In this document: piece by piece, positions 11,770 to 18,989 of the stretch
Layout: the number at the start of each line of letters is the position of its first letter
How positions within the stretch are numbered: position 1 is the stretch's first letter
Origin: an uncultured Clostridia bacterium
Lineage (GTDB): Bacteria > Bacillota > Clostridia > Christensenellales > Borkfalkiaceae
Direction of reading: 5' to 3'
Assembly: GCA_947627575.1 (NCBI GenBank)
Contig: CANQWN010000004.1
Location: 1-64,000 of the forward strand
DNA length: 64,000 nt
Translations under genes and position numbers: made by a program
The notes under the pieces: model-generated
Told to the model about the DNA's origin: nothing
The model's database searches: none
What the model saw: the letters and a program-made list of their open reading frames with translations, nothing else

Positions 11770-14700
11770 ATGAGACGTAAATTATTTGCCGTACTGTTAT
11801 TGCTGTTGTTTGCCGTATGCGGCGCCTTTGTGATTTCCGCCTGTAACGAGGATGAAAAACAGGCGCATACCCAACATATCTGGGGCGAATGGCAGGTGGT
11901 AACTCCTTCCGATTGCGAGACGGACGGGCTTAAACGCCGTTCCTGCGAAGTATGCAACCAAACAGAGGACGAAGTAATCCCCGCAGAGGGACACAAGATA
12001 ACAAATCCTCAAACAGTTCAGCCTACGTGTACAGAGGATGGGTACAGCTCCGGCAAATGTTCGGTATGCGGCGAAACGGTTACCCAAAATATCCCCGCTT
12101 TGGGGCACGATTGGGACGACGGCGAAATGACCCAAATCCCCACCTGCGTTCGGGGGGGGGGTTAAAACTTATACGTGCCGTCGCGACGGAAATCATAAAA
12201 AGACGGAAGATACGGATATAGATCCCGACGCACACGCAATGGACGGCGGGGTAATCACCAAAAAGCCCACCTGTATGGAAGGGGGCTTAAAGACCTTTAC
12301 CTGCCTCAATAACTGCGGGTATACCGAAACGGAAGATTTGGATATCGATCCCGACGCGCACAGGATGGACGGCGGGGTAGTTACCAAACAGCCCAACTGC
12401 ACGGAAGAGGGCGTAAAGACCTTTACCTGCCTCAATAACTGCGGGCATACCGAAACGGAAGATTTGGATATCCAACCCGACGCGCACAACTATGTTTACA
12501 GTTCGGACGAACATACCCATACGCGGTATTGTTCCTACTGCCTGCGCGAGGATATATCGCAACAACCGCACGAGATAGTAAACGATTACGAGTGCGAAGT
12601 ATGCGGCTGGCATTACGAGTACACCACATCGCTTACTTTTGCGCCCAACACCCACGGCGAGGGCTATATGGTAACGGGCGCAAATAACGGCGAACTTACC
12701 AAAATAGTAGTCCCCGACATGTACGAGGGCGAACCGGTGGAGGCGATAAACAGCTCGGCGTTTCGTACCGACACTGCCGGTAATTTCCTGTCGCTTGAAG
12801 AGGTTGTGCTGGGCGAAAATATAACTTTTATAGGTTATACGGCGTTCTATAATTGTACCCAATTACAAAAGATAAACTTCCCCGACAGTCTGGCGATAAT
12901 AGACGGATATGCTTTTTCAAACTGTACTGCGCTTGAAGAAGTATCCTTTGGCGAAAACCTGATTACAATAGGGTTGCAGGCGTTCTGGTGCTCGGGCATA
13001 GTTTCGCTTGTATTGCCGCAAAGCGTTACATACGTTGGGCAGTGGGCGTTTTCCGAATGTCCTAATTTAAAGACGGTGGAAATAAACTGCGACGAAGCCG
13101 AATTTGTGCAGTGCGCGTTTTTAAGATGTCCCGAACTTGTATCGGTGACTATAGGCGACGGCGATATAATATTAGGTAACTGGGCGTTCCAGCAGTGCAA
13201 CAAACTTAAAACCTTTACCGTGGGCAACGGCAACGTAACTTTCGGCAAGGATTTGCACGGCGACGACGGCAGTGTAACCGTCGCGCAGGGCGTTTTCTAT
13301 CAAAGCGCAGGCTTGCAGAACTTCATTGCGGGCGACGCAGATCTTACGTTCGGCAATTGGACTTTTCAGGAATGTACCGCGCTTGAAACATTCGTTGCGG
13401 GCGGCGGCGATATAGTTTTGGGGAACGGCGCTTTCTACGGTTGTACGGGGCTGCTGAATGTTGATTTGGGCGACGGCAACGCGGTAATCGGCGAAAACGC
13501 GTTTTCAAGCAGCGCATTGCTGAAAAGCGTAACTTTCGGCGACGGCGACGTAACAATAAAAGGTCAATATGTGGATGAAGAGTACACCTCGTACATATAC
13601 GGCGCGTTTTACGGATGCTATTCGCTTGAAAGCGTAACTTTCGGCAACGGAAATAAAATCATACAGGATTATGCTTTCAATGATTGCGCAAATTTAAGCA
13701 GTTTGGTTTTGGGCGAAGGCGACGTGCAGATAGGCGTAAGCGCCTTTGAAAACTGCAAAAAACTTCTTTCGCTTACCGTAAACGGCTCTGCCGATATAGG
13801 CGACAGCGCGTTTGAAAGTTGTGAGGCGCTTACTTCCGTATCGATATCGGGCAGGGCGGCGCAGATAGGTAATGAGGCGTTTTACATGTGCGAAGCGTTG
13901 CGCACGTTCTCTGTGGGGGACGGCGACACGGTTATAGGCGGCAGGGCGTTCTCCATTTGCGATTCGCTTGAAAGCGTAATTTTCGGCAACGGTTCGCTTA
14001 CCGTAGGCGAATTTGCGTTCTTTTCGCTTGATAAGCTGGAAAGCATAACTTTCGGCGACGGAGATAAAAACTTTGAACAATACGCCTTCGCATATCTTGA
14101 AGTTTTGCAAAGCGTATCGCTGGGCAACGGCAATGCGGATATCGCGCAGGATTGCTTCCGCAACTGCTCGTCTATCGGCGTATTTACCGTAAGCGGCGGC
14201 TACGTAAATATAGGCGACGACGCGTTCTGGGAATGTACTTCGCTTACATCGGTGCGCACGGGCGAAGGTAAAACCACCGTCGCCGAACAGGCGTTCCACG
14301 GTTGCTTGCAACTTCATTCTTTCGTCACGGGCGGCGCGGCGGATATAGGCGGAAACGCTTTCGTGCTGTGCGAAAACCTTGCCGAAGTTACTTTCGGCGG
14401 CGGAAAAACAAATATCGCCAGGGACGGCTTTTACAATCTTAAAGGGTTGGAAAGGGTGGAATTCAACGGCGACGTGTATATAGAAGAGTTTGCGTTTGCT
14501 TCCTGCGGGGTAAAAACAGTTGTGTTCGGCGGCGACAACGTAAAGCTGGATGTGCAAAGTTTTTACGGATGCAGGCAGATGGATTCGGTAACTTTTTCGG
14601 GTCGCGGAACGTTTGAAGGCGGCGCGTCCGCGTTTGCAAGTTGCACAATGCTTGCCGACGTCCGCATGCAATACGACAAAGCGATTTTGGGCGATAACAT

Positions 14701-16714
14701 TTTCATAAACTGCGGCGTCCGCAACTTTGAATTTACGGGCGGAACTTTAAACATAGGCAAGCAGGCTTTCCATCTCGTAACAAGCCTCGAAAGCGCGCGT
14801 ATGGAGGCTTCTGTGGAACTTAATATAAACAATTTTGCTTTCTCCGGATGCATATTGCTTTCCGAAGTTGTTTTAAGCGACAATCTTAAAAGTATAGGCA
14901 TAAGCGTTTTCGATGATTGCGACAACTTGCCGTATTACTATTACGGAGGCGGCAAGTATCTCGGCAACGAAACCAATAATTACGTGGTGCTTATAACTAT
15001 GGAAGATAAATCGCGCACGTCTTTGGATATAAATCCCGCAACGCGCATTATATACGAAAACGCCGTGGCGGGAAGCAACGTGCAACAGATAAAACTTCCC
15101 GACGGAGTGCGCCAGATAGGCTATAACTCTTTCGGTTGGTGCGAAAAACTTACCGATATAGACCTCGGGCAAAGCCTTACGGATATAGGCGGCAGGGCGT
15201 TTTACGAATGTAAAGTTCTCGATAATGTGGTATTGCCCGATTCCCTGTTAAGCATCGGCAACAACGCTTTCGGCAAGTGCGTGGGACTGAAAGAAATAAC
15301 TTTCGGCGATAATCTCGCCAACGTAGCAGAGTACGCGTTCGACGGCTGTACTTCGTTAACCACAGTAAAAGTGGATTCTGTCGAGGCATGGCTTAATATC
15401 TCTTTCGAGGATACCCAAAGGGTTAAATCCACCAACCCGCTTTCGGCGGACGGCGTGCAGTTGATTGCCGGCGGACAGCTTATAACCGACCTAATCGTGC
15501 CGGACGGCGTGCAAAGTATCAACCCCCTCGCGTTCGCGGGATATGCGCGCCTTACAAGCGTAAAAATAGGCGCGGGCGTAAGCGAGATATCCAAGTACGC
15601 CTTTATGGGGTGCGTAAATCTCAACGAAATAACCGCAAACCCGTCCAACAGGTGGTATACGGCGGAAAACAACTGCATTATAGAAAGCGACACGCGCAAG
15701 TTGATTTTGGGTTGTACGGGCAGTACAATACCGCAGGGCATAACGGAAATAGGCGATTACGCTTTCTACGGCATAAAATTCACAAATCCGGAGCAGACCG
15801 TGCCCGATACTGTCAACAGCATAGGCGAATACGCCTTCTACGCCTCAAGCGGCATTTCCAAAATAACTATGGGCTCCGGCTTGCAGGAAGTGGGCAAGTG
15901 GGCTTTCGCAAGCAACAGTATAGACGAAGTTTATTTAACCGATCTCAAAAGCTGGTGTTCAATAGTCTTTGCGGATGAACATTCCAGCCCCATAAGGTGG
16001 GGAGGGCAGTTGTACGTAAACGACGTAAAAGTTTCCAACGATTATACGGGCGGACTTGTAATTCCCGAAGGTATAGAGGAAATAAAAGATTACGCTTTCT
16101 CGCACGCCACAATAAACAAACTTACAATTCCGCAGTCAGTTACCTATATAAGCAACACGGCTTTCGCCTATTGCGCCGGGCTTAACAACGTAACGGTTAA
16201 CGTGAATAACCCCGTCTACCACAGCGCGGTAAACGGGATAATAGAAACGGATACCAAAACGATAATAGTAGGCGTGGTAACCGCAGGATATAACGGAAAT
16301 AAAGTGCAGATAGCTTCAAATATAGAACATATCGCGCCCTATGCGTTCTCTTACCGCGTGGTTAATAACCTCACGTTTTCCGTAGGATTAAAGGATATAG
16401 GCGACCACGCTTTCGAGGGCAGCTATATCAGCGGTTCGGTTGTTATACCGGAAGGGGTGGTAAGCATAGGCGAAAACGCCTTCTCCGGCAATACCAAGCT
16501 TACAAGTTTGAAGATAGCTTCCACGGTGAACTATATAGGCAGAAACGCCTTCTGGTCCACATCTGCGCTTACTTCGGCGGAATTTGCAGAAAAAAGCGGT
16601 TGGAATATGCGCTACGATTTTACGGGCGATCAGATAAAGCCCGACCTTTCGGACGCGGCCAAGGCGGTGGAATACCTCCATAAAAACGGCTACGTATGGC
16701 GCCGCGAAAGTTGA
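11770..16714 (+). CDS. BspA-like leucine-rich-repeat lipoprotein, frameshifted at a G10 tract
   Basis: Starts at ATG 11770 after GGAGGTG. Signal peptide with lipobox VISAC (lipid Cys25). Residues ~30-240 form Cys-rich units (PTC...G..KT.TC...C....E). About 1,350 residues of LRR_5/BspA-type repeats follow, with recurrent AF..C..L..V..G and IG..AF blocks. As written, the frame from 11770 hits TAA at 12163-12165, just after ten G (12152-12161), giving 131 residues. The downstream frame is open through the tract to 16714. With nine G the two parts join as PTCVRGG-VKTYTC, exactly like the neighbouring units (PTCMEGGLKTFTC), and encode about 1,647 residues. The G10 could be an OFF state of a phase-variable gene or an assembly error. 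Such proteins are usually cell-surface adhesins; no LPXTG anchor is seen, so lipid anchoring is inferred. Confidence 0.88.
12152..12161 (+). repeat. G10 homopolymer tract within the lipoprotein gene
   Basis: Ten consecutive G. Loss of one G, or change to any length equal to nine modulo three, restores a reading frame of about 1,647 codons. It is the longest G run I see in the window. Confidence 0.95.
12239..12490 (+). repeat. Two tandem 126-bp near-identical units
   Basis: Units 12239-12364 and 12365-12490 each encode 42 residues beginning MDGGV and ending in DPDAH or QPDAH plus one residue. The nucleotide sequences are nearly identical. A more diverged copy lies just upstream and carries the G tract. 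Such repeats allow copy-number change by recombination. Confidence 0.9.
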
Positions 16715-16772: not shown

Positions 16773-16979
16773 CTATTTTTTAAACACAAACAAATACTCG
16801 TGCGCAAGCAGTAAAAAGTTAAACTTTATACTGTTTGTTTTCCAATAGCCTGTCGCCCTGCAGTTGTGTTGTTCCTTTATGATAATCTCTTTCGTCTTGA
16901 ACCCGGCAAGCTCAAAAATCCGCATAACTTCAAATGCAAGCGGCTGAACCATACTCTCTTTCAAATAGCGCAAAATCAA
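16773..16979 (-). pseudogene. 3' remnant of an N4/N6 DNA methyltransferase
   Basis: A 68-codon frame whose last ~56 residues (PLAFEVMRIFELAGFKTKE, IIIKEQHNCRATGYW, LLLAHEYLFVFKK) match, as I remember the family, the C-terminal end of Firmicutes DNA modification methylases of the DNA_methylase N-4/N-6 type. The catalytic (D/N/S)PP(Y/F) and FxGxG motifs, and everything else upstream, are missing. The 45 bases before it belong to the end of dpnD and a short spacer. It therefore looks like a gene beheaded by insertion of the DpnI cassette. The first ~12 codons are probably fortuitous. It is unlikely to make a functional protein. Confidence 0.72.
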
Positions 16980-17024
16980 ATTTCGCGGGATATCCGGCGG
17001 CAGATTTCCGCGATAGATAAATTA

Positions 17025-17219
17025 TCAAAATTCTATCCATTCGGTAGGTTCATCGCCAACGGATGCCATTTGCCGAAATTCTACTTCGTCTTTATCCAAT
17101 ATAAATTCACCTTTTTTATATTTTTCTTCGGCTATATTTAACGCTTCGCAACTTTCTTCTGCCCAAACTTCAAATTCTTGAACAACAGTTTCTTCAATTG
17201 CAATAATAAACTTTTTCAT
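17025..17219 (-). CDS. dpnD: DpnD/PcfM-like small protein
   Basis: A 64-residue acidic protein. The pattern KKFIIAIEETVVQEFEVWAEE, then EALNIAEEKYKKGEFIL and D..DEVEF.., follows the DpnD/PcfM-like family. In Streptococcus pneumoniae dpnD is the second gene of the DpnI cassette; its role is not established. It lies 6 bases after the DpnI-type gene and has GAGGT before its ATG, so it is co-transcribed with it. Base composition is more A/T-rich than in the flanking housekeeping genes. Confidence 0.82.
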   Translation of the reverse strand: MKKFIIAIEETVVQEFEVWAEESCEALNIAEEKYKKGEFILDKDEVEFRQMASVGDEPTEWIEF

Positions 17220-17225
17220 TTTACC

Positions 17226-17996
17226 TCAATATATTTTCCTATATTTTCCTCTCTGCGTGAAGTCTAAAAAACCTTTGTCGCGCAGGTATTGTAATTGCTG
17301 TCTGATTTTAGGTTTAACGTTATGATTGTATGGATGCTTTGCCGATAATAATGATTCATAACGATATATGTCGTCAAGTGAAAATTCTTGCTTTGGTATT
17401 AAATTAACGCATTCAAGCACGTCAAACAACCAACCGCGTGCGCTAATATCCAAAACTTCCAAATCAGAGCTTTGTGACATCTGCAACAGCACTTTTTCCT
17501 TATCAACGGCGCAGCCGTTCTCAATAATTTTTATAAATCCCTGTTTGGGAACAGCGTTCAATAAAATATTACATCCAACCCATCCCGACCTGCGTGCAGT
17601 TGCGGAAAGCGGTTTGCGCTTTTCAATCATAGACGGAACAAAGAAATGCTTTGGAACGATAACAAGATTTTTTACTGTCAAGGACTGTTTTTCGTATCCC
17701 ATAAATAAAAAATCGGGGTTCTGATTACTTGTTATTCTGTCAATCATAGTATCATATGCGCCGTCGTTTACCTTTTCGCCTAATGCGCCGCTCTTGCTTT
17801 TCAGTTCAAACTCGTTTTTACAATTCTCGCAATAGAAGTCTGCTACCGGGCGATTATTTTGCAAATGGGTTATCTTTGCGTTGCCACAACGCGGGCAGTA
17901 CAAATTTTTCCCTATCCAAGTTTCGGTAAGCACGCGTATACGTTGCGTTGTGCTATGGTAAGCGTCTATACCATCAACTTGCATTTGTAAATCCAT
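17226..17996 (-). CDS. dpnC: DpnI-type methyl-directed restriction endonuclease
   Basis: A 256-residue homologue of S. pneumoniae DpnI, which cuts GATC only when the adenine is N6-methylated (type IIM). The N-terminal nuclease domain has a zinc site from CPRC (34-37) and CENC (56-59). Its PD-(D/E)xK residues are Asp53 (VADFYC), Glu64 and Lys66 (ELKSKSG), at the same positions as I recall for DpnI. Other near-identical blocks are NDGAYDTMI, RKPLSATARRSGWVGCNI and the C-terminal winged helix ending KIRQQLQYLRDKGFLDF. Length matches (about 254 in DpnI). Its ribosome site AAGGAG lies inside the end of the truncated dam gene, which it overlaps by 23 bases. All catalytic residues are present, so it should be active. 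It is not a DpnII-type enzyme, which would cut unmethylated GATC. Confidence 0.93.
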   Translation of the reverse strand: MDLQMQVDGIDAYHSTTQRIRVLTETWIGKNLYCPRCGNAKITHLQNNRPVADFYCENCKNEFELKSKSGALGEKVNDGAYDTMIDRITSNQNPDFLFMGYEKQSLTVKNLVIVPKHFFVPSMIEKRKPLSATARRSGWVGCNILLNAVPKQGFIKIIENGCAVDKEKVLLQMSQSSDLEVLDISARGWLFDVLECVNLIPKQEFSLDDIYRYESLLSAKHPYNHNVKPKIRQQLQYLRDKGFLDFTQRGKYRKIY

Positions 17997-18939
17997 AAGT
18001 TTTTAACTCCTTATTATCTTTTCTCAACACAATCTTTGCGCCCGTTTTGTTTATTGTGTCAATAAAATGCGCCAAACGTATTTGCTGTTCGTCGTCAAAA
18101 GCGTCGGCATTGTATGAAGTGAAAGCGGACGTTTCTGAAATAGGGCGGTACGGCGGGTCGAGATATACAAAAGTATTCTTGTCGATGAACTCTTTCGATA
18201 ATGAATAGTCGCCGCAAACGATAGTAACGTTTTGCAAAACTTTGCTGATATTAAGCAAGTTTTCCTCGTCGCAAATTGTAGGATTTTTATATGCGCCCAT
18301 GGGGACGTTAAACTGCCCTTTGCGGTTTACACGATACAGCCCGTTGAAGCAGGTTTTATTTAAAAATATGAAGTAAGCCGCCTTTTCAGCCGACGTTGCC
18401 TCCGTCAACTCTACGGAATTGAATTTATCCCGTATGGAATAGTAGTAAAACTTTCTGCCGTTCTCGTCCATAGGCAAAAAGACCATTTGCATTTCCATAA
18501 GGCGGGCAATCAATTCCGCAACGTTCCTTTTTATCACGTTATAGGCGTTGATAAGTTCGGGGTTTATGTCGCTTATATAAAGTTCGGTAAAATTATATTT
18601 CGACAGCACGTTGAAAAGAAGCGCGCCGCCTCCTACCATAGGTTCGCAATACTTTGTCAAAACTTTTTCACCGGTTGAAGGAAGCATCTTTTCAAGTTCG
18701 TCGATAAGTTGCCCCTTGCCGCCAACCCATTTTACAAAAGGCTTTATCGTGACCGGATGTCCCTTTTCACGGCGAACGGTTCTTTTATCTATGGGCTTTT
18801 CGGCGTTGCCGGGAATAATCCACATATTGCCTACCATCATAGCTCCGACTATCCTGTTTTCACTGCAAAGTATCGCTACGCGCCGTTGCGAAATGTTCCA
18901 TTTTTCAGCCGCCTCTTTGGCGGATATAAAACTTAACAT
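17974..18939 (-). CDS. HTH-Dam-type adenine methylase, C-terminally truncated
   Basis: A 321-residue protein. Residues 1-57 form a helix-turn-helix domain (SAKEAAEKWNISQRRVAIL), which is commonly fused to this clostridial methylase type. Residues ~62-309 are a D12-class Dam/DpnM N6-adenine methyltransferase with PFVKWVGGKGQLI (motif X), YCEPMVGGGALLF (SAM-binding motif I) and the catalytic VYLDPPYRP (motif IV). The protein stops at KIVLRKDNKELKTYGFTNAS. Family members continue here with motif V (SNSD) and about 60 more residues, so the tail is lost exactly where the dpnC gene begins. A GATC methylase that worked would make the chromosome a DpnI target, so loss of activity is expected. The ATG at 18939 has GGAG upstream; a TTG at 18972 is rejected. 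Confidence 0.88.
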   Translation of the reverse strand: MLSFISAKEAAEKWNISQRRVAILCSENRIVGAMMVGNMWIIPGNAEKPIDKRTVRREKGHPVTIKPFVKWVGGKGQLIDELEKMLPSTGEKVLTKYCEPMVGGGALLFNVLSKYNFTELYISDINPELINAYNVIKRNVAELIARLMEMQMVFLPMDENGRKFYYYSIRDKFNSVELTEATSAEKAAYFIFLNKTCFNGLYRVNRKGQFNVPMGAYKNPTICDEENLLNISKVLQNVTIVCGDYSLSKEFIDKNTFVYLDPPYRPISETSAFTSYNADAFDDEQQIRLAHFIDTINKTGAKIVLRKDNKELKTYGFTNAS

Positions 18940-18960: not shown

Positions 18961-18989
18961 ATTATATTCCAAGTCGCGAATAAAATCAA
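18961..18989 (-). promoter_or_regulatory. Promoter of the dam'-dpnC-dpnD unit
   Basis: On the minus strand: TTGATT (18989-18984), 17 bases, TATAAT (18966-18961). Leader of about 15 bases with GGAG. Confidence 0.75.

Follow-up and report, generated by a model that had tools for sequence, protein, structure and literature searches.

A DpnI-type cassette within a former HTH-Dam operon of an uncultured Clostridia bacterium, and a truncated Dam that may persist as its regulator

The locus analysed here raises the question of how a gene for a predicted methyl-directed endonuclease comes to stand between the remains of two DNA methylase genes, and of whether the truncated methylase in front of it is a relic or still serves the operon. 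In S. pneumoniae, DpnI and DpnII are exchangeable cassettes at one site, and a preliminary description of this stretch of DNA (the window, 64,000 nucleotides in all) regarded the locus as the fossil of a cassette swap, in which dpnC and dpnD had replaced the middle of a Dam-plus-methylase locus. The genes lie on the minus strand, from 18989 down to 16773, in the order sigma-70-type promoter, HTH-Dam stump, dpnC, dpnD and the remnant of a second methylase (M2), with the following features:

18961..18989, minus strand: promoter-operator, the block conserved in the aligned loci
18989-18984, minus strand: -35 element TTGATT, part of the promoter-operator
18982-18965, minus strand: palindrome TATTC-N8-GAATA, between -35 and -10
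18966-18961, minus strand: -10 element TATAAT, part of the promoter-operator
18772..18939, minus strand: HTH domain, codons 1-56 of the Dam stump, probably the operator-binding part; HTH_17 match below the Pfam cut-off
18025..18756, minus strand: methylase part, codons 62-305 of the Dam stump; DPPY and glycine-rich motif present, last ~50 codons absent
17974..18024, minus strand: 3' end newly acquired by the stump, comprising codons 306-321 and the stop codon; as a leader it includes an AAGGAG ribosome-binding site and the dpnC start
17226..17996, minus strand: dpnC, 256 aa, predicted DpnI-type methyl-directed endonuclease (Pfam and R.DpnI alignment)
17025..17219, minus strand: dpnD, 64 aa (PF14207 DpnD-PcfM, 4e-08)
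16953..17015, minus strand: M2 remnant, codons ~35-55 (tblastn with the intact M2 of locus L080, 71% identity)
16773..16961, minus strand: M2 remnant, codons 184-245 and stop (tblastn with the intact M2 of L080, 90% identity)

On the plus strand, a repeat-rich open frame of 1491 aa (12239-16714), with leucine-rich-repeat-like units recognised by eye, converges on the operon.

The stump gene starts at the ATG at 18939 and its stop codon ends at 17974, giving an open frame of 321 codons in which the methylase domain is incomplete: the Dam model TIGR00571 is matched only to position 230 of 267, and DpnM (PDB) is followed only to residue 243 of 284. In an alignment with 13 intact HTH-Dam genes of the same genus, the stump leaves its relatives right after codon 305 (AKIVL), codons 306-321 being new sequence. 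The intact proteins measure 350-355 aa (340 aa in one case) and continue for ~50 codons beyond the join; thus, the truncation described previously is real, but about 50 codons are missing and not about 60. The reported overlap of 23 bases between dam and dpnC is exactly 23 nt.

It could be argued that an intact dam has merely been misassembled or frameshifted here, since the relatives with named records are metagenome assemblies. However, five other assemblies (L079, L020, L021, L107 and L114) agree with the window in the join after codon 305, the length of 321 codons and the 23-nt overlap, and the dam tail that a different assembly might have revealed appears in none of them. Six assemblies therefore have the same join, and the five of them assigned to genomes represent three genera of two families; the probability of an assembly slip is practically negligible. 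A near-identical join also occurs in the diverged cassettes of L110, L117, L125/L127 and L123. In all 12 loci measured, L110 being left out of this count, the stop of the upstream frame overlaps the start of dpnC (by 23 nt in six, by 11 nt in four, and by 17 nt and 4 nt in a single locus each). A programmed frameshift that would fuse Dam to DpnI was considered on the basis of the overlap itself. The surroundings of the loci differ: when seven were compared in pairs over 900 nt before the start codon, they matched only in stretches of 30-68 nt around the promoter. AlphaFold models were uninformative, the intact control (mean pLDDT 61) being no better than the stump (67).

The origin of both stumps is indicated by the relatives. 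Each of the 13 intact HTH-Dam genes is followed by a further gene, and in ten of these loci M2 (~245 aa) comes after this middle gene, while it was not seen in L081, L098 and L099. Among the middle genes compared with Pfam, those of L088 and L082 (the latter outside the 13 aligned genes) match PF04556 DpnII and stand between HTH-Dam and M2, so that a Dam-type methylase and a DpnII-type endonuclease do share this operon in relatives. The middle gene of L080 (5521-6060, minus strand), also between HTH-Dam and M2, encodes 179 aa and matches PDDEXK_11 weakly; the 177-aa protein of L098 has no Pfam match. Frames of 179 aa that begin like that of L080 were observed in L083, L084, L085, L086, L087 and L090. 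Taking into account that relatives carry the uninterrupted operon (HTH-Dam, endonuclease and mostly M2), which the preliminary description had proposed to look for, the replacement of its middle by dpnC-dpnD is well supported. What it displaced corresponds to codons 306-355 of dam, the gene for the endonuclease, and the beginning of M2.

When both stumps are aligned to intact genes, the joins fall at dam codon 305 and, in L114 and L021, at about codon 27-30 of M2. In these two loci dpnD abuts M2 there and M2 is otherwise open (in L021, to the contig end). In the window, compared with the intact M2 of L080, codons ~35-55 are fused to codons 184-245 by an in-frame internal deletion, so that what had been described as the last ~56 codons of a second methylase is a genuine but slightly larger remnant, a 62-codon tail plus an N-terminal scrap; it has no Pfam or NCBIfam match of its own. 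In the other same-join loci M2 begins at codon 144 (L079), at 157 and with in-frame stops (L020), or at 128 behind an unrelated open frame (L107). The start of M2 is lost in six of six same-join loci, with more deletion or stops in four (the window, L079, L020 and L107), and the M2 remnant is decaying.

Pfam matches confirm both dpnC and, downstream of it, dpnD. The dpnC product matches DpnI (2.4e-75) and DpnI_C (3e-32) and aligns over its full length with R.DpnI (phmmer 1.7e-79; PDB 4esj), containing the two domains that characterise the family, the catalytic one (PF06044, residues 1-178) and the C-terminal winged helix (PF17726, residues 186-254). The active-site residues D53, E64 and K66 are all present, as are L130, R136, W139 and G141, the equivalents of L129, R135, W138 and G140 in the methyl pocket of R.DpnI (residue roles as described in PMC4117772). 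Judging from these residues, the product would cleave G-m6A-TC as DpnI does. In L025 (4768-5097), and also in L108 and L116, a small protein with the motif FYTxEG(Y/C)TESP was observed after dpnC, in dpnD's usual place; for the L025 copy, neither Pfam nor PADLOC gave a match.

Two active enzymes could coexist in one cell if the truncated Dam still methylated another site, or if this DpnI homologue had no need for methylated DNA. The motifs up to codon 305 are kept, as the first possibility would require, but the last 24-38 of the 267 Dam model positions are unmatched in eight stump genes; the second is opposed by the retention of the methyl-pocket residues, W139 being kept in 33 of the 34 DpnI homologues aligned. 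Such joint activity is considered very improbable. As regards other sources of GATC methylation, a TIGR00571 search of the host genome returned the stump only and no other Dam-family gene, and GATC methylation is probably absent from this host. In none of 26 genomes with dpnC was there a full-length TIGR00571 match above 200 bits; weaker full-length members, whose target may or may not be GATC, exceed the cut-off in five of them (G072, G202, G225, G306 and G1108), and two more (G778 and G813) have Dam-family members below it. Among 93 genomes of the genus, a full-length match above 200 bits occurs in 16, and a full dpnC is absent from all 16, a distribution that is only suggestive of mutual exclusion between Dam and dpnC.

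Depletion of GATC in the window (42 seen vs 127 expected from trinucleotides) was considered and dropped as evidence, because CTAG (0 vs 35), GGCC (6 vs 307) and CCGG (117 vs 389) are depleted as much or more over positions 1-64000. This marked avoidance of palindromes perhaps reflects a history of GGCC-type restriction. A search of the host genome for C5-type methylases (PF00145) found just one (L164, G000:C5 38346-39476), which adjoins a 444-aa protein with an NPPY motif.

To what extent the locus is a singular case can be judged from 35 distinct dpnC loci, broken copies included, which were found by a search with the window's dpnC and therefore lean towards its relatives. L093, a dpnC fragment beside an M2 tail, lies outside this set, and eleven short weak matches (L007, L008, L010-L018) were not counted as dpnC. 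A former HTH-Dam operon lies beneath dpnC in 18 of the 35, and 17 show no trace, L124 being placed with the latter since its one-mismatch promoter-like match is accompanied by neither HTH nor M2. The Dam stump is open in eight loci (the window, L079, L020, L021, L107, L114, L110 and L117, the last cut by a contig end and visible only from codon 170), whereas in three it is a decayed stump or relic with dpnC still open (L125, L127 and L123). Only the HTH persists in five, either alone (L025, L108 and L116) or fused to DpnD (L092 and L120), and in two dpnC stands directly on the promoter, which is exact in L096 and has two mismatches in L109.

In a dpnC tree of 34 of the 35 loci (L030 left out), those with a former operon fall into at least three groups, matching three gene orders (dpnC-dpnD; dpnC followed by the 'EGYTESP' small protein; dpnD-dpnC), with the provisos that these groups also hold loci without the HTH site and that support labels may be one node off after re-rooting. 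These results suggest that cassettes took over such operons more than once. The notion of a fossil is only partly right: M2 is decaying, whereas the six same-join stumps are open and conserved. A single event was rejected as the whole story on account of the tree groups and the condition of the stumps, and several cassette types occur at such loci.

In a pattern-free alignment of the sequence before the start codon, one block is conserved in 19 of 19 loci (four stumps, 13 intact genes and two HTH-only loci). Its consensus, TTG-N4-TATTC-N8-GAATATAAT, comprises the -35, the palindrome and the -10. The 30-nt promoter pattern occurs once in the window against 0.01 expected, and the palindrome with its -10 is matched exactly at only one place in the host genome (1.59 Mb). 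Across the 93 genomes of the genus, the pattern (one position being A or G) is matched exactly 19 times, in 18 genomes. In 17 cases the match stands directly before dpnC, an HTH-Dam, a stump or an HTH cut by a contig end. Allowing one mismatch adds 19 more, of which at least four belong to Dam or HTH loci (G007, G033, G070 and G076), and a reversed control pattern gives four matches at up to one mismatch. The remaining two exact matches lie before a different methylase gene, in which a 57%-identical HTH is fused to an N6_Mtase/Eco57I-type protein (L139, G017:C4, 2-1495, minus strand), and before a 239-aa protein without HTH_17 (L152, G045:C12, 1549-2268), perhaps another gene that captured the promoter.

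The palindrome is usually accompanied by this particular HTH. It is absent, within three mismatches, from four of five HTH-less Dam loci (L047, L048, L050 and L057), and among eight loci with more distant HTHs (38-60%) it occurs within two mismatches only in L056. In the five HTH-only loci mentioned above, where nothing else of Dam is retained, HTH and palindrome are kept together, with one mismatch in L025 and two in L120. Promoter and HTH can part, as indicated by L096 and L109, with dpnC on the promoter without an HTH, and by L046 / L100 (G007:C10), where a palindrome with one mismatch precedes a Dam without the HTH part, whose match ends at codon 284. The window presents the arrangement of an HTH-methylase autorepressor, with an N-terminal HTH and a conserved palindrome overlapping the gene's own promoter, the HTH_17 match of the stump (E 0.0073) being under the Pfam cut-off and that of L025 reaching 3e-05. 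The conserved palindromic promoter lends weight to the earlier suggestion that the HTH on the stump may regulate the operon, which it would do by binding the palindrome and repressing the promoter.

Conservation of the stump itself is a more ambiguous guide. Codon-model omega (IQ-TREE; L114 left out) is 0.067 over six stumps vs 0.055 over 13 intact genes, or 0.048 vs 0.028 in the HTH and 0.069 vs 0.060 in the methylase part. At 124 columns invariant in the intact genes, the stumps differ at 0-2, except L020 at six and L107 at seven, and intact genes left out in turn show 0-8 differences. Such values could be taken as proof of function. However, the M2 tail, part of a methylase that does not work in these loci, is conserved as well (pN 0.081 and pS 0.825 in eight remnants; 0.053 and 0.908 in the six of 11 intact tails recovered by motif), with pN/pS of about 0.10 and 0.06, respectively, which weakens the argument and implies that young swaps or recombination may explain the state of the stump.

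Thus, it is quite possible, if short of probable, that the stump is functionless, the swaps being young relative to the divergence of the lineages or the Dam and M2 ends being refreshed by homologous recombination with intact alleles. The two ends would then be kept as recombination arms, and the stump as a leader frame to which dpnC translation is coupled. The conservation of the M2 tail is in line with this, and recombination is visible: codons 1-245 reject a tree in which all six stumps form a single clade (AU p 0.0045), codons 246-305 do not (p 0.127), over the whole region the stump of L020 falls apart from those of the window, L079 and L021 (AU p 0.0019), and the differences between L020 and L107 are arranged in mosaic blocks. 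The conservation of the stump may therefore stem in part from young swaps or refreshed ends. Divergence between the two parts of the locus points in both directions, since dpnC shows the greater divergence of the two in the pairs among the window, L079 and L021 and in L020-L107, whereas the Dam arm does so when L020 is paired with the window, L079 or L021. Against a functionless stump, HTH and palindrome are kept together in the five loci without the rest of Dam, and all six same-join stumps are open vs the loss of the M2 start in all six.

The reading preferred here, with a probability of roughly 0.6, is that dpnC took over an autoregulated methylase operon, and that the truncated Dam is now a translated, methylation-dead HTH regulator coupled to dpnC. 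It relies on the link between HTH and palindrome and on the overlapping dpnC start, not on dN/dS. Against it speak the conservation of the M2 tail, the lineages in which the stump has decayed or is gone and dpnC is kept, the loci at which promoter and HTH have parted, and the five dpnC genomes with other full-length Dam-family genes. In the proposed sequence of events, the ancestor would have been a GATC-type restriction-modification operon composed of HTH-Dam, an endonuclease and M2, in which HTH-Dam would control its own promoter through the palindrome between -35 and -10. The dpnC-dpnD cassette would then have replaced the segment between codon 306 of dam and codon ~30 of M2, removing the Dam C-terminus and leaving promoter, palindrome and HTH in place. 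Loss of methylase activity by this truncation would leave GATC unmethylated, and DpnI would therefore be harmless to the host. The stump would still be translated, its end, overlapping the start of dpnC, would couple the translation of the latter, and its HTH would probably still repress the promoter.

A more specialised role has also been considered, in which the stump is a dedicated regulator whose HTH and dead GATC-reading domain set DpnI expression, perhaps by sensing the state of GATC. The truncation, nearly fixed at codons 305-308 across families, would fit this role, which nonetheless appears doubtful.

If dpnC did take over an autoregulated methylase operon, an incoming endonuclease would have acquired an existing, probably self-regulated promoter, as the present data suggest. 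They also suggest that Neisseria and the pneumococcus are not the only bacteria in which a protective methylase operon gave way to its opposite, an endonuclease that depends on methylation, and a defined HTH-palindrome pair seems to serve more than one restriction gene. The series of intact operon, stump, decayed stump, HTH only and promoter only makes the order and mechanism of swaps testable. Among the titles and abstract openings returned from the open-licence PMC literature, none dealt with a conserved HTH-Dam stump or a shared HTH-operator module beside DpnI; the replacement of dam by DpnI is already known in Neisseria, and the takeover of the HTH-operator module with a retained HTH-Dam stump would be the new element.

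Among known systems, SsoII and Ecl18kI are C5 methylases, whereas here the HTH belongs to a D12 adenine methylase and outlives the complete enzyme. Autorepression of a methylase gene by the N-terminal HTH of its product is an established mechanism, and the SsoII/Ecl18kI type shares with the present locus both this N-terminal HTH and an operator that overlaps the promoter of the methylase gene (PMC3874152). In Neisseria, a DpnI homologue is described as inserted at dam, with dam truncated (PMC4269198, PMC516771); this dam-replacing gene, drg, lies beside leuS and the passages concerned do not mention an HTH on dam, whereas the operon analysed here keeps the promoter and HTH of HTH-Dam. The pneumococcus has either DpnI or DpnII (PMC3573125), and the present locus resembles this alternation in that dpnC-dpnD stands where some relatives have DpnII. 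It differs from it in that the joins lie inside the methylase genes, leaving stumps, and in that the promoter belongs to HTH-Dam.
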